Shown here: one piece after another, positions 57,644 through 63,948 of the stretch
Layout of the letters: every line of letters begins with the position of its first letter
Numbering within the stretch: position 1 is the stretch's first letter
Source of the DNA: Caldicellulosiruptor bescii DSM 6725
Lineage (GTDB): Bacteria; Bacillota; Thermoanaerobacteria; Caldicellulosiruptorales; Caldicellulosiruptoraceae
Reading direction: 5' to 3'
DNA: 64,000 bases
NCBI RefSeq assembly: GCF_000022325.1
Contig: NC_012034.1
Location: forward strand, 1,859,501 to 1,923,500
The notes under the pieces: generated by a model
What the model was told of the DNA's origin: nothing
The model's input: the letters and a program-made list of their open reading frames with translations, nothing else
Database searches by the model: none
Program-made: the position numbers and the translations under genes

Positions 57644-57689
57644 ATTGCTTTTAAGCTGTTAATTAATGAATGGTAGTGAAGAAGAAAAA

Positions 57690-58391
57690 ATGTCAAAGGA
57701 AAACCCTTTAAAATTTCTGGGAATTATAAGTGCTTTTAATCCTAATTATAACAATACCTCTGTTTACTTTGAATTGGAAGATAATCTTTTTTTAATTGAC
57801 TGTGGTGGAGGTATATTTAACTCCCTTTTGAGTTTGAAACTACTTGAAAAATATTTGCATTTAAATGTTTTAATAACTCATACACACCCTGACCACATTG
57901 CAAGTTTAGGTCAATTAATATTGTATTGTTATTATCAACTAAGTAAGAAAATAACTCTTATCTTTCCTCAACCTGAAATAATATCAAATTTACTTGACTA
58001 TATGGGTATCAGAAATGAGATATACACTTTGAAAACCCCTCAGGACTTTGTTAACTATCTCAGTAAACTTACGGTAATATCCTTAGAACAAGTTCATGTA
58101 AATGAATTGCCTTGTTTTGGATATCTAATTTACTTGAATAATATAACATTTTATTACAGTGGGGACTCAAAATCAATTCCTCTTTATATCCTAACCAAAT
58201 TTTTAGAAGGCGAAATAGATTTTTTATTCCAAGACACTTGTTCAGAAAATCATAACCATCATCCCCATCTTTCCATAAAGGAACTTTCAGAACAAATACC
58301 ACCCTCAAAAAGAAAACAGGTTTATTGTATACATATTGATGAAAGGTTTGATATAAATTTAGCTAAAAATTTAGGGTTTAATATACCTTAA
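57690..58391 (+). CDS. Metallo-beta-lactamase-fold hydrolase
   Basis: 233 residues. The metal motif THTHPDH and later ligands in YYSGDSKSIP (Asp) and YCIHIDE (His) fit the beta-lactamase-fold phosphodiesterase/RNase Z-like group; FLFQDTCSENHNHHPHLSI carries further His. It contains FLGIISAFNPNYNNTSVYFE at the start as in that group. The substrate is unknown. Its place between two GAF-GGDEF paralogues suggests a nucleotide or signal phosphodiester substrate (inference). Start is uncertain: ATG 57690 is chosen because FLG follows soon after; ATG 57666 adds eight residues, and neither has a good ribosome site. Confidence 0.78.
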   Translation: MSKENPLKFLGIISAFNPNYNNTSVYFELEDNLFLIDCGGGIFNSLLSLKLLEKYLHLNVLITHTHPDHIASLGQLILYCYYQLSKKITLIFPQPEIISNLLDYMGIRNEIYTLKTPQDFVNYLSKLTVISLEQVHVNELPCFGYLIYLNNITFYYSGDSKSIPLYILTKFLEGEIDFLFQDTCSENHNHHPHLSIKELSEQIPPSKRKQVYCIHIDERFDINLAKNLGFNIP

Positions 58392-58420: not shown

Positions 58421-59627
58421 ATGATCGAATATAATAATCCCCAAGATTTAAAAAGACTAATCAGAAAACTCAATAAAATTGGAATTACAATTTCACGGGA
58501 GAAAAACGTCGATACCATTTTAGAAATGATCTTAAATGAAAGCATTGACATCACAAATAGTGATGGTGGTACCCTCTATATCGTAAAAGAATTCGAAGGA
58601 CAAACATATTTAGTCATCACACTTGCCAAAAACTACTCAGTTGATTTTAATTACATTGGTTATAAAATACCTATAGATAATCAAAGCATTGTCGGATACG
58701 TTGCCCAAAATGGCATTCCTGTTACAATTAACAACATTCAAAATATCCAAAATTCTCACCTGCAGCAGTTTAAACTTTTCGACCAAGCTTTACATTATAA
58801 AACCCTAAATCTTATGGCAATACCCATGATTGATTATCAAGGCAATGTGATTGGTGTTTTGCAGATAATAAACAAAAAGAAAGACAACTCCATTAAGCTA
58901 ACAGAAGACAACATCTACCAAAATATTGCTGACTTTACAAAAGAAGATGAAGAAATTATTTTGTCACTTGCATCTCAAGCGTCTTTATTAATTGAACGAA
59001 TTCATCTTTACCAAAGGATAGAAAAAAATATTGCAAACACTCGTTATGCTCTAATCAGTTTATTTAATTCTATGAAACAAGTGATTGCAAACTTGAGTGA
59101 AGATATTTTAATTGAACAAGAAGAGTTTAAAAAATATGCATCTTTGGACGATCTGACAGGTCTGTTTACGCGAAATGAAGGAATGATTTATTTAGAAAAG
59201 CAGATACAACTCTCCAAAATGAATGAAACACACTTTGTTGTTTGCTTTATTGATGTCGATAGATTAAAACAAGTAAACGATACATTTTGCCACCAAATAG
59301 GGCTATGAACTTTTAAAAAGCTTTGCTCAAATTCTAAAAGAAAGTATCAGAAGTTATGATATAGCATTCAGATATGGCGGAGATGAGTTTGTGTTGATAC
59401 TTTATAAAGCAACAATAAGAGAAGCTAATATTGTTCTTACAAGAATCCAAAATAAAATCGACGAGTTTAACGCAAAAGTCCAAAAGCCCTATAAGATTCA
59501 AATAAGCTATGGATTTGCTGAATATTCCCCAACTTCCAATTTGAACTCCGAAGACTTGATTAAAATAGCTGATGAGAATATGTATAAGGTCAAGAAAGAA
59601 AAGAAAAAAAGTCGACCCTCATATTAA
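58421..59627 (+). pseudogene. GAF-GGDEF diguanylate cyclase with a single-base frameshift
   Basis: The frame at 58421-59308 gives a GAF domain (about 20-195: NSDGGTLYIVKE, SIVGYVAQNGIPVTINN, IPMIDYQGNVIGVLQIINKK) and the first half of a GGDEF domain (LDDLTGLFTRNEGM; CFIDVDRLKQVNDTFCHQIG). It then hits a stop after the GGG at 59300-59302. Dropping one G restores GYELLKSFAQIL and continues to 59627 with the I-site RSYD and an intact GGDEF (59376-59390), 401 residues in all. Nothing else is missing, so this is either recent inactivation, strain phase variation at a short G-run, or a sequencing error. It has a GAGAGGG site. Confidence 0.88.
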
Positions 59628-59640
59628 TTATGAGGGTCGT
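59600..59640 (-). terminator. Terminator of the riboswitch-controlled gene (bidirectional hairpin)
   Basis: CGACCCTCATA-ttaat-TATGAGGGTCG (59613-59639). On the minus strand it is followed by ACTTTTTTTCTTTTC, a strong terminator 50 bases after the 59690 stop; on the plus strand only TTC follows. Confidence 0.85.
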
Positions 59641-59689: not shown

Positions 59690-60109
59690 TTAGAATGACC
59701 ATACAAACCTTGAAAAATGATCTGTTTTCAGCTGTTGTTTTTTAAGTTTGACATAAATATTCTTCCCCGCAGACCTATCATAGATGTACCCTTTATATCC
59801 TTCACATCTTAGGTGCACATCTTTTTTGAACTTAGCATCTGGTGAAAATTCAATGTACACAGTTCCATTTTCAGCATATATCTGTGCATAAAAGGTAATT
59901 GCATCTATTCCATCAGGTAGCGAGTCTTTCTTAAAATCAATTTCTACAAAGCCTACCTGAAATTTTCCTCCTTCATTTGTTACAGTAAAACTACCACTAA
60001 ATTGAATAGGAGTTTCATCTTGTGCAAAAGCAATGCTACTCAAACCTAATGATAAAGTAATTACCAAAAGTACAGCAATTGACCATTTCTTCAAAACATG
60101 ATGCTTCAT
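59690..60109 (-). CDS. Small secreted protein controlled by a c-di-GMP riboswitch
   Basis: 139 residues, not recognised. A clear signal peptide (KKWSIAVLLVITLSLGLSSIAFA, cut about residue 29 before QDE) is followed by a roughly 110-residue beta-rich domain (FSGSFTVTNEGGKFQVGFVE; YAQIYAENGTVYIEFSPDA) and a basic C-terminus (KNIYVKLKKQQLKTDHF). No SLH, sortase or membrane anchor is seen. AAAGGAGGTG precedes the ATG, and upstream are a terminator and a c-di-GMP-I aptamer. A surface, adhesion or biofilm role is inferred only from this control. Confidence 0.85.
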   Translation of the reverse strand: MKHHVLKKWSIAVLLVITLSLGLSSIAFAQDETPIQFSGSFTVTNEGGKFQVGFVEIDFKKDSLPDGIDAITFYAQIYAENGTVYIEFSPDAKFKKDVHLRCEGYKGYIYDRSAGKNIYVKLKKQQLKTDHFSRFVWSF

Positions 60110-60133
60110 AACTTTTTACACCTCCTTTAAGTT

Positions 60134-60154: not shown

Positions 60155-60194
60155 TTAATATATCAAAAGGCACCTGGCTTTACTGCCAGGTGCC
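60155..60194 (-). terminator. Intrinsic terminator of the riboswitch expression platform
   Basis: GGCACCTGGC-agtaaa-GCCAGGTGCC (60169-60194) followed by TTTTGATATATT on the minus strand. Its 5' arm (CCTGGCAGT) can also pair with the aptamer segment ATTGCCAGG. Confidence 0.85.
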
Positions 60195-60238
60195 TCTCTA
60201 CCAAAGGGAAATACTCTTTTTTACTCCCTTTACCCTTG

Positions 60239-60350
60239 GACATATGTTTCGGCAGCCTGGCAATCATAGGAAAAGGTAAAAACCCTTTTCCGACAGACCC
60301 ATGGCTTTGCGCCCCTGCCTTTCGACAGGTTTGCCTTTATCGACATATGC
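60239..60350 (-). promoter_or_regulatory. Cyclic di-GMP-I (GEMM-I) riboswitch aptamer
   Basis: Minus strand shows the class hallmarks in order: P1 strand CATATGT, AAAGGCAAACC, the GAAA tetraloop in TGTCGAAAGGCA, GGGGCGCAAAGCC, ATGGGTCT, a long P3-type hairpin GGAAAAGG...CCTTTTCC, TATGATTGCCAGGCTGCCG and the closing ACATATG. It lies upstream of the terminator and the secreted-protein gene. The 60110-60486 gap contains only this, its terminator, hairpin and promoters. Confidence 0.92.
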
Positions 60351-60422: not shown

Positions 60423-60450
60423 ATTATCGCATAAATTTTTAAATTTTCAA
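60423..60450 (-). promoter_or_regulatory. Candidate promoter of the riboswitch transcript
   Basis: Minus strand TTGAAA (60445-60450), 16 bases, GATAAT (60423-60428) with an extended TGC before the -10; the aptamer starts about 65 bases downstream. Confidence 0.5.
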
Positions 60451-60486: not shown

Positions 60487-63400
60487 ATGATTTGTTTTAA
60501 CTGTGGCAATAAAATTCAATCTCCTAATGCTGAAAAATGTATCTTTTGCGGAATGAAATTTAAGGGTGTGTGTCCATATTGCAATTCATTATTACCTACC
60601 TACATTAATTTCTGCCCTAATTGTGGGGAATTTGTAAGACAAGGTGAAGCTAATCAACAATCTGCTGACGAACTAAAAAAGGTAGCCGTGCTATTTGCAG
60701 ATATATCAGGATTTACTAAGCTTTCCGAAAAAATAAGCCCTGATGAGGTTAATGATATAATCAATGAATTTTTTGAATATATTTTAAAGCCTGTTTACTA
60801 CTATGAAGGTACCATAGATAAATTCATTGGAGATTGTGTTATGCTACTATTTGGTGCAAAAAACTCTCACTTGGATGACCCAAAGCGTGCTGTGTTGTGT
60901 GCTCTTGAAATGTTGAAGCTCTGTAACGAGTTTTCAGTACAAAAAAATTTAAAAATATCAATGAGTATCGGCATAAATTATGGTATAGTTGCAATTGGCA
61001 AAGTCGGAGGATATTATGAAAAGGATTATACTGTTATTGGTGAAGTCGTTAATGTTGCTCAGAGATTACAAGCAGCAGCACCTGAGAATACTATTTATGT
61101 ATCAGAGAGTATTTATAGAGAGACTTTTGATTTATTCCTATATTCAGAGGCAAAAGAAATTTATGTTAAAAATAAAAGCAATCCCATAAGGTGTTATATA
61201 CCTTTAGAAATTATCAATGAAGCTACAACATTTGATGTAATTTCTCGTATCCAGGATAGCTATTTATCAAAACTATTTAATATAATCGCATCAAAAGATA
61301 CAAATAGCGTTCTTTTACTGGGGCCAAACGGTATTGGAAAAACTTCTCTTTTAGAAAAATTAACTAATCATTTAGTTGCAAACAATATAAAAACGTATTA
61401 CATTAGATGCAGTTTTAATAATTATTCGCGCCCTTACTTGTTAATTTCGCAAATAATATGTAAAGTATTAAATGTGAGTGTAGACGATGTGCAAACCATA
61501 AAGCAACATCGATTAATCTCTTTTCTTGACTTTTTATTTAAAGATGACTTAGAAAAAAAAGAAACTTGTTTCAATTTTCTTTCTATCATTCTGCAATTAG
61601 ATATCGAGGATGATTTTAGAAATATTGTTTCATCCATGACCAAAGAAGATTTGGAATTTGAAATTCGGCAAAATGTACTTCTATTTTTTGATGCTTTTTT
61701 GAGCTCAAATTTTTCTATTTTTTTAATAGATGACATCCATTATGCTGACATTGAATCAATTCAAATCCTGGAATATTTAAAGACAAATTTGTATTGTGAT
61801 AAAGTAATCTTTATTATAACTTCAGAAAATGAAAGTATCCACCTTAATGCCGAAAAAACCATCTATGTACAGAAATTGTCACTTCAGGAAACAGAGGAAT
61901 TTCTGAAATCTTTCTTTAATGTTAATACTGTTGATGAAAAATTTACCCAGCTAATGGTGGACATATCAGAAGGAAAAATTTCTTACCTTCAAGAGGTTTG
62001 TAGATGGCTTTATTTGAATCATCAGTTGTGCATTCAGAACAATAAGCTGTTTCTTCAAAACACTAATATAAATGCTTCAGAAATATTTTATAAAATTGTT
62101 GAACACAGACTTTCTCAACTCGATAAGGAATTAATACAATTTTTGAAAATAGCTGCTGTTTTTGGACAAAGATTTAATTTACGTATAGTATTAAATGTTC
62201 TAAAACCTTCAAAATCTGAAAATGATATCATCTTAACTCTTTCAAAAAGTAATTTCATTAAATTTGTTGACATAACTTATCAATCTTCAACAGCAGACAA
62301 AATCTTCGAATTTGCAAATAATATTATTTTTGAAGCAGTCCTGAGATCAATACCAAAAAGTACTAAAATAAATTTTCATCTTAAAATTGCCAAATCTATT
62401 GAAAAACTATTCAGAGAAAATATTAGTTATTATTACGAGCTTTTGATTTATCATTACCGTGAAGCGAACGATATAATAAATTCTTCCAAATATTGTATAT
62501 CACTTGCAAATTATTACAAAAAGCAGCTTTTGTACAAGTACGCAGTAAAATACTTTAAAATTGCAATTGAAATGTTAGAAAATTACAACCAACAAAAAAA
62601 CAATCTATATACAAGAGCACTTGAAGAATTATCAAGTTTAGAAAAACAAATGGGTAACTATGTTGAAGCTCTTAAGTACTTAATTATCTTAGATAGTGTA
62701 GCAGATGCCGAAAAAAGTCTATTTATAAAAAGCGAAATATGTGAATCTCTCATCCTTACTGCTGACTTTGCTAAAGCGAAAGAAATACTCATAGGGCTTG
62801 AAAAAAATATTGACAGGAATAGTACCTTATATTCAAAATTAGTCTACCTCAAGAGTCTATTTCAATGTTATACTGGGGCTTCAGATATTAACCATATTTT
62901 GGAAGAGGCAGAAACTATAATAATGCAAGATAATGAGATTGAGAATCTTGTGAAAGTCTTTAATATAGTTGCATATACATTTTATAGAAACTATGGAGAT
63001 ATTAATAAGGCAATAAATTACTTACAAAAAGCTAAATCTGCCGCAATTAAAACTAATAATATTGCTTTACGTGTCAAACTTACCAGTAATCTTGGTATTC
63101 TTTATTTTCAAACTGGTCAAATTAATAGTGCAATACAAAATTTAACATCAGCCTTAGAAGAAAGCAAAAAAATTTCCGATAGACATACACAAATTCATAT
63201 TTTGATAAATTTAGGGATAATTTATACAAAGAAAGGACTTCTTAAAAAAGCACACGAATATCTAAACCAAGCTTATGAAAATGCTGAAAAATGGAATTTC
63301 TCGTATGAAGAATGTGCTTGCCTACTTAATATAGGCGAAATCTACATTGAAAAAGGCTTATTAATACATAGCTATGAATTGTTTTTAGCCTCACTAAATA

Positions 63401-63948
63401 TCAGCGAAACAAAAATGTTTACTGCCGAAAAAGCTTTGAGTTTTATAAATCTCGCAAAAGTTTTGATCCTTATGAAAAATTGGCAAGCTGCTGACGAATT
63501 TCTTAATAAAGCAACAAGTTTTATTGAAAATTTAAAAGACATAGATATATCTTATGAATATCATCTAACTAAGGCAGAGTTTTTTATGTTGTCAAACAAT
63601 TTTTTGGATGCAGAGAGAGAAATTGATATTTCATTAAAGTTTGCAGAAAAAAACATATTCAGACAAATAGAATGCATAAGAAAGAAAGGGGAAATACTTT
63701 CTGCTGCTGAAAAGTATAGTGAAGCAATAGAATGCTTCAAAAATGCAATAAAACTTAGTGAAACAAGTGGTTCTGCCTTAGAACTTGCAAAGTGCTATTT
63801 TCTCTTAGCAAAAACTTATCTAAAAACTTCGCAAAAAGACCAAGCAAAGTATTATATTGAAATGTCAGAAAAATGGAGCAAATTAATTGATGATGAGTGC
63901 AGTATCAAGACTGAAATAGCTTCATTTAAAAAGTTTTTGATAAGTTAG
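60487..63948 (+). CDS. Zinc-ribbon / class III nucleotidyl cyclase / AAA ATPase / TPR protein
   Basis: 1153 residues. Two zinc ribbons lie at 1-47 (C3-C6/C18-C21 and C29-C32/C43-C46). The cyclase domain spans about 65-240: metal Asp D72 (LFADISGFTKLSE) and D116, Lys112 in DKFIGD, Thr182 in DYTVIGE, where class IIIb cyclases replace the adenine-binding Asp, N189 and R193 (VVNVAQRL). All catalytic residues are present, so cAMP synthesis is expected. The ATPase has P-loop GPNGIGKTS (279-287) and FLIDDIHYAD (near 410). From about 690 to the end run TPR-like helical repeats (LGILYFQTGQINSAIQNLTS; LGIIYTKKGLLKKAHEYLNQ). Ribosome site weak. The 52 bases to the window end hold nothing recognisable. 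Confidence 0.9.
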   Translation: MICFNCGNKIQSPNAEKCIFCGMKFKGVCPYCNSLLPTYINFCPNCGEFVRQGEANQQSADELKKVAVLFADISGFTKLSEKISPDEVNDIINEFFEYILKPVYYYEGTIDKFIGDCVMLLFGAKNSHLDDPKRAVLCALEMLKLCNEFSVQKNLKISMSIGINYGIVAIGKVGGYYEKDYTVIGEVVNVAQRLQAAAPENTIYVSESIYRETFDLFLYSEAKEIYVKNKSNPIRCYIPLEIINEATTFDVISRIQDSYLSKLFNIIASKDTNSVLLLGPNGIGKTSLLEKLTNHLVANNIKTYYIRCSFNNYSRPYLLISQIICKVLNVSVDDVQTIKQHRLISFLDFLFKDDLEKKETCFNFLSIILQLDIEDDFRNIVSSMTKEDLEFEIRQNVLLFFDAFLSSNFSIFLIDDIHYADIESIQILEYLKTNLYCDKVIFIITSENESIHLNAEKTIYVQKLSLQETEEFLKSFFNVNTVDEKFTQLMVDISEGKISYLQEVCRWLYLNHQLCIQNNKLFLQNTNINASEIFYKIVEHRLSQLDKELIQFLKIAAVFGQRFNLRIVLNVLKPSKSENDIILTLSKSNFIKFVDITYQSSTADKIFEFANNIIFEAVLRSIPKSTKINFHLKIAKSIEKLFRENISYYYELLIYHYREANDIINSSKYCISLANYYKKQLLYKYAVKYFKIAIEMLENYNQQKNNLYTRALEELSSLEKQMGNYVEALKYLIILDSVADAEKSLFIKSEICESLILTADFAKAKEILIGLEKNIDRNSTLYSKLVYLKSLFQCYTGASDINHILEEAETIIMQDNEIENLVKVFNIVAYTFYRNYGDINKAINYLQKAKSAAIKTNNIALRVKLTSNLGILYFQTGQINSAIQNLTSALEESKKISDRHTQIHILINLGIIYTKKGLLKKAHEYLNQAYENAEKWNFSYEECACLLNIGEIYIEKGLLIHSYELFLASLNISETKMFTAEKALSFINLAKVLILMKNWQAADEFLNKATSFIENLKDIDISYEYHLTKAEFFMLSNNFLDAEREIDISLKFAEKNIFRQIECIRKKGEILSAAEKYSEAIECFKNAIKLSETSGSALELAKCYFLLAKTYLKTSQKDQAKYYIEMSEKWSKLIDDECSIKTEIASFKKFLIS

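Follow-up and report, generated by a model that had tools for sequence, protein, structure and literature searches.

The leader of a gene for a small secreted protein of Caldicellulosiruptor (now Anaerocellum) bescii very probably contains a class I c-di-GMP (GEMM-I) riboswitch working as a transcriptional OFF switch. There is no doubt about the aptamer; strong support for an OFF architecture of the leader comes from its sequence and from folding predictions, and from these we infer ligand binding, the direction of the switch and its efficiency. The aptamer (60344-60247, minus strand) is the sole Rfam RNA that cmscan found in the whole window, by which we mean the entire 64,000-nt stretch of DNA that was analysed, and all the switch elements (aptamer, linker hairpin, terminator and gene) lie on the minus strand. 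In order of transcription, the features are:

60423-60450, minus strand: promoter-like element, TTGAAA-16-GATAAT with TG ahead of the -10 (consensus scan; five orthologous loci keep the element)
60241-60349, minus strand: P1 helix, CATATG 60349-60344 with CATATG 60246-60241, which encloses the aptamer (sequence; present in the 75 °C fold)
60247-60344, minus strand: c-di-GMP-I aptamer (cmscan, RF03167 74.0 bits, RF01051 78.2 bits)
60314-60329, minus strand: P2 hairpin with GAAA loop (cmscan alignment)
60251-60264, minus strand: switching strand A (AUUGCCAGGCUGCC), the P3 3' strand in the aptamer and otherwise the predicted antiterminator 5' strand (pairing, folds)
60201-60239, minus strand: linker hairpin between aptamer and terminator, predicted in both states (folds)
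60182-60194, minus strand: strand T (GGCACCUGGCAGU), the terminator 5' arm and part of its loop, which can pair with A (folds, duplex energy, conservation)
60165-60194, minus strand: predicted intrinsic terminator, a 10-pair stem (60194-60169) with a 6-nt loop, followed by UUUU (folds)
60119-60128, minus strand: ribosome-binding site AAAGGAGGTG (sequence)
59690-60109, minus strand: regulated gene, single copy, for a 139-aa secreted protein with signal peptide (open frame, genome comparison)
59613-59639, minus strand: terminator closing the regulated gene (terminator scan)

The initial annotation had assigned the element to the c-di-GMP-I family, naming no strand, and had proposed a covariance-model search as a check. 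The match to RF01051 scores 78.2 bits, well over the gathering cut-off of 35 bits, and covers model positions 1-87 end to end and untruncated; with the canonical pocket bases also present, the assignment stands. The three-way junction of P1, P2 and P3 and the GAAA-capped P2 were found in the cmscan alignment, the P1 sequence and the folds. The pocket bases G20, A47 and C92 (Vc2 numbering) are all kept, at what we take to be G60335, A60308 and C60252 or C60251, respectively, the last being the cytosine that pairs with the ligand.

An altered specificity, of the type of the GGC variant (RF03167) or of the cGAMP aptamers (GEMM-Ib), is very unlikely here. RF03167 is ranked first by cmscan E-value, and its 74.0 bits exceed the gathering score of 59, but RF01051 is ahead in bits, and the variant G at the A47-equivalent is missing: this base is G in the RF03167 consensus and A in the RF01051 consensus, in this RNA (A60308) and in all the RF03167-matching loci that were read. 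The name 'GGC' presumably denotes the nucleotides found at 20, 47 and 92. On the diagnostic base (A, not G) and the bit scores we rejected the Rfam 'GGC variant' label, which looks wrong for an RNA whose sequence is that expected of a canonical c-di-GMP-I element; the label, it appears, can attach to canonical c-di-GMP-I RNAs. The G20-equivalent is G (60335), unlike the A of the cGAMP types. Hypr GGDEF enzymes, which make cGAMP, carry Ser at a site that is ordinarily Asp, and Asp was found at this site in all five readable domains (5/5) of the six GGDEF domains in the genome. Among the window-type loci, L020 (G011:C1:912798-912897) precedes a gene for an HD-GYP-type (PF13487) protein, and since the diagnostic base is A and one copy stands before such a gene, c-di-GMP is favoured as the ligand. 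If the L020 element turned off a c-di-GMP phosphodiesterase in this way, the result would be positive feedback. The genus makes c-di-GMP, with measurements published for three of its species (PMC4342205, PMC9933333). As a separate observation, the c-di-GMP-I-like aptamers of three loci in another genus of the class (L049, L051 and L052, near position 1510) have GAGC in place of the GGGC or AGGC present elsewhere, which puts A, the cGAMP-type base, at the G20-equivalent; no Ser-type (Hypr) GGDEF was found among the readable domains of the two genomes with GAGC aptamers.

The switch is predicted to depend on the complementarity between strand A of the aptamer and strand T of the terminator. The initial annotation had described nine pairs, one of them G-U, between AUUGCCAGG (60264-60256) and CCUGGCAGU (60190-60182); these are present, but the helix was understated, as a fold of the transcript that stops right after this arm of the terminator shows a full alternative helix, AUUGCCAGG-(C)-UGCC with GGCACCUGGCAGU, of 13 pairs and one bulged C. 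The additional pairs cover 60254-60251, including the cytosines 60252 and 60251, one of which is the ligand-pairing base. Nine contiguous pairs were rejected as a standalone proof, because by chance a longer run (10 contiguous pairs against the 14-nt aptamer strand) occurs in one terminator among the window's nine others. We replaced this measure by duplex energies and by a comparison of 26 loci with 69 control terminators, the latter drawn from a 400-kb portion of this genome. The A:T duplex has an energy of -21.8 kcal/mol, and shuffling the terminator arm 2000 times gave no value this low, while the lowest energy among the controls is -15.9 kcal/mol and none of the 69 forms at least nine contiguous pairs with the aptamer strand.

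The comparison covered 12 genomes of the genus, each with one to four copies of the aptamer. GGCRYCTGGC is present in the terminator 5' arm at all 26 aptamer-terminator loci of these genomes and in 0/69 control terminators, and this arm and strand A are complementary at each of the 26. These loci are related and do not represent independent events, so that a fairer count takes the three terminator types and adds the outer lineages. The stems differ among the three types (GGCACCTGG, GGCATCTGG and AAAACGGCGTC), and because of this the constant part of T is the part that pairs with the aptamer; at several loci part of the conserved GGCRYCTGGC falls in the loop of the terminator, a place where the hairpin has no need of it. 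Maintenance of the A:T pairing despite divergence of the terminator stem points to selection on switching. In L044, a locus from the sister genus, the stem is altered in its middle and both pairing ends are retained. Outside the genus the two arms change together, being GGCTGCC/GGCAGCC in L036 and GGTTGCC/GGCAACC in L046, and co-changed arms were also seen by eye in L049-L052; covariation is confined to few positions, because in the aptamer the longer half of A hardly varies. Pairing of the A:T type is absent from eight loci of another genus (L037-L043 and L045), and having an aptamer therefore does not by itself entail it. About six window-type relatives (L009, L012 and L015-L019 among others) have just six contiguous pairs plus four past a bulge.

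Several loci are built differently. Two relatives in the genus (L026 and L034) have another platform without a terminator, in which a hairpin strand CTCCTTATATGGAG is complementary to the ribosome-binding region CTCCATATAAGGAG; their sequence suggests translational control. The aptamer of L035 stops after the 5' strand of P3, seemingly interrupted by an insertion, and L023, of the celA type, combines window-type upstream sequence with a mismatched P1, as though two copies had recombined.

Folding predictions agree with a switch that is decided during transcription. At the point where T leaves the polymerase, the predicted lead of the antiterminator over the aptamer is 8.6 kcal/mol (37 °C) or 3.5 (75 °C), and at full length the combination of aptamer and terminator is favoured by 8.0 and 2.0 kcal/mol, respectively; these energies contain no ligand term, tertiary contacts or real transcription kinetics, and are extrapolated to growth temperature. 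Over the 26 loci, the median antiterminator probability is 0.999 (37 °C) and 0.90 (75 °C) at the exit of T, and 0.04 and 0.09 at full length, with the tapirin-type loci and L014 as exceptions that are predicted to stay in the antiterminator state at full length at 37 °C. Since the antiterminator is the better fold at T exit and the terminator at full length, read-through would be kinetically favoured in the ligand-free RNA, and ligand holding A would favour termination.

We propose that the polymerase would transcribe the aptamer, the linker hairpin and, next, T as the 5' arm of the terminator. If no ligand is bound, T would invade the aptamer 3' strand A to give the 13-pair antiterminator, with P3 opened and the ligand-pairing C hidden, and this state would allow read-through and expression of the secreted-protein gene. 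When c-di-GMP is bound, A would be locked in the aptamer and T would pair with the terminator 3' arm, so that with abundant c-di-GMP transcription would end about 55 nt upstream of the start codon. The OFF direction that the initial annotation had predicted is upheld by the complementarity at 26/26 loci, the aptamer-free terminator and a layout like that of the Cd1 riboswitch, and it is still a prediction.

The opposite direction, an ON switch in which the ligand blocks the terminator, has precedent in some GEMM-I RNAs such as the pilM riboswitch of Geobacter (PMC9262584); moreover, adhesion-related genes are frequently upregulated by c-di-GMP, and in Bacillus a collagen adhesin is under a class I switch (PMC4933901). 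We nevertheless consider it highly improbable. The pilM terminator includes a strand of the aptamer, whereas here the terminator lies wholly downstream (60194-60169), contains no aptamer sequence and is compatible with the aptamer in full-length folds at 37, 55 and 75 °C; since it borrows nothing from the aptamer, the two can coexist, which is the topology of an OFF switch. Furthermore, the strand conserved for aptamer pairing is the terminator's own 5' arm. The ON topology was rejected on this anatomy of the leader. A decayed or constitutive element, in which the terminator attenuates whatever the ligand state, would be in keeping with the weak U-tract, which is short (UUUUGAU), and with the history of the downstream gene, which is interrupted in two genomes (G007 and G008) and absent from another (G005) with the riboswitch retained. 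Such decay is extremely unlikely, however, given that the A:T pairing is preserved where the terminator stem diverges and that the promoter-like element and the ribosome-binding site are both present. The simple terminator scan did not return the terminator at 60194-60169.

The closest known system to the proposed OFF switch is Cd1 of Clostridioides difficile, a measured transcriptional OFF switch of the flagellar operon (PMC9262584). Both have a GEMM-I aptamer followed by strands T and H that form the terminator, and an antiterminator made of T and the aptamer 3' strand that hides the ligand-pairing C (C87 in Cd1; PMC9262584); in both the antiterminator is stable just transiently and the terminator is more stable at full length, as is predicted here. 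The two differ in P1, which is a clear 6-pair helix here and is described as lacking or weak in Cd1, in their unrelated platform sequences, and in the target, here a secreted protein in a thermophile, in a system known from sequence and folds. In C. difficile, every class I riboswitch that was tested is reported to be OFF, one of them upstream of a putative adhesin (PMC6200980). The aptamer class and the predicted direction are thus shared with that group, whose targets include surface proteins (PMC6200980), whereas in the present case the likely targets are a secreted protein specific to the genus, tapirin and, at a distance, CelA. The pilM riboswitch of Geobacter metallireducens responds to cGAMP and is ON (PMC9262584); it shares a homologous aptamer fold and transcriptional control with the RNA described here, but has A where this RNA has G at the G20-equivalent.

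The switch would control a single-gene unit, because the terminator at 59613-59639 ends the regulated gene. The 139-aa protein was found in 11 of the 12 genomes of the genus, whole in nine of them, and is restricted to the genus in the collections searched, a scan of named genomes giving no relatives. No family was recognised in Pfam or NCBIfam, the best match among PDB sequences had an E of 0.21, and the structure model (mean pLDDT 61) was too uncertain for a fold search. Adjoining the riboswitch gene on the plus strand (58421-59627) is a GAF-GGDEF (diguanylate cyclase) gene that is frameshifted in this genome; in five relatives its GGDEF region is uninterrupted, with Asp at the site in four and Asn in one. 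A metallo-beta-lactamase-fold protein with weak matches to RNase Z and cyclic-nucleotide-degrading families is encoded between two GAF genes (57666-58391, plus strand), and a divergent gene (60487-63948, plus strand) encodes a 1153-aa protein with a zinc ribbon, a class III nucleotide cyclase, an AAA ATPase and TPR repeats.

Two further c-di-GMP-I copies are present in the genome (L004:12616-12527 and L004:6652-6563, both on the minus strand), with the same A:T pairing. One is about 115-150 nt upstream of the gene for the cellulose adhesin tapirin, identified by NCBIfam NF051896 (962.7 bits) and PDB matches 6n2b and 4wa0. The other is upstream of the gene for the main cellulase, CelA (GH9-CBM3x3-GH48), with a gap of 488 nt after its terminator, a spacing that is conserved (459-533 nt in seven genomes). 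This copy has a TTGACA-17-TATAAT promoter ahead of the aptamer, and there may be a second promoter closer to celA, inside the leader. Between riboswitch and start codon, the celA leader also has a second perfect hairpin (L004:6396-6360, minus strand; CATTGGCTGCC...GGCAGCCAATG), with arms similar to strand A of the aptamer and to the complement of that strand.

The type of switch is already known, and what makes this example of interest is its likely regulon. We found no report linking riboswitches to tapirin or celA in the open-access literature, and a 2021 regulon study, according to which no dedicated transcription factor serves the glucan degradation locus, makes no mention of riboswitches in its text (PMC8579813). 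It is possible, and we put it forward tentatively, that the paralogous c-di-GMP OFF switches of the genus jointly shut down the secreted protein, tapirin and CelA as c-di-GMP rises, that c-di-GMP would in this way loosen the hold on cellulose, and that this would account for some of the control that the glucan degradation locus has seemed to lack. Candidates for this control are two of the predicted OFF switches, the celA copy at a distance of about 490 nt from its gene and the tapirin copy at about 115-150 nt.

The usual role of c-di-GMP is pro-adhesion. If our proposal is true, its effect on cellulose attachment would be the reverse in these bacteria, and the model offers a testable direction of c-di-GMP control for an industrially studied cellulose degrader.
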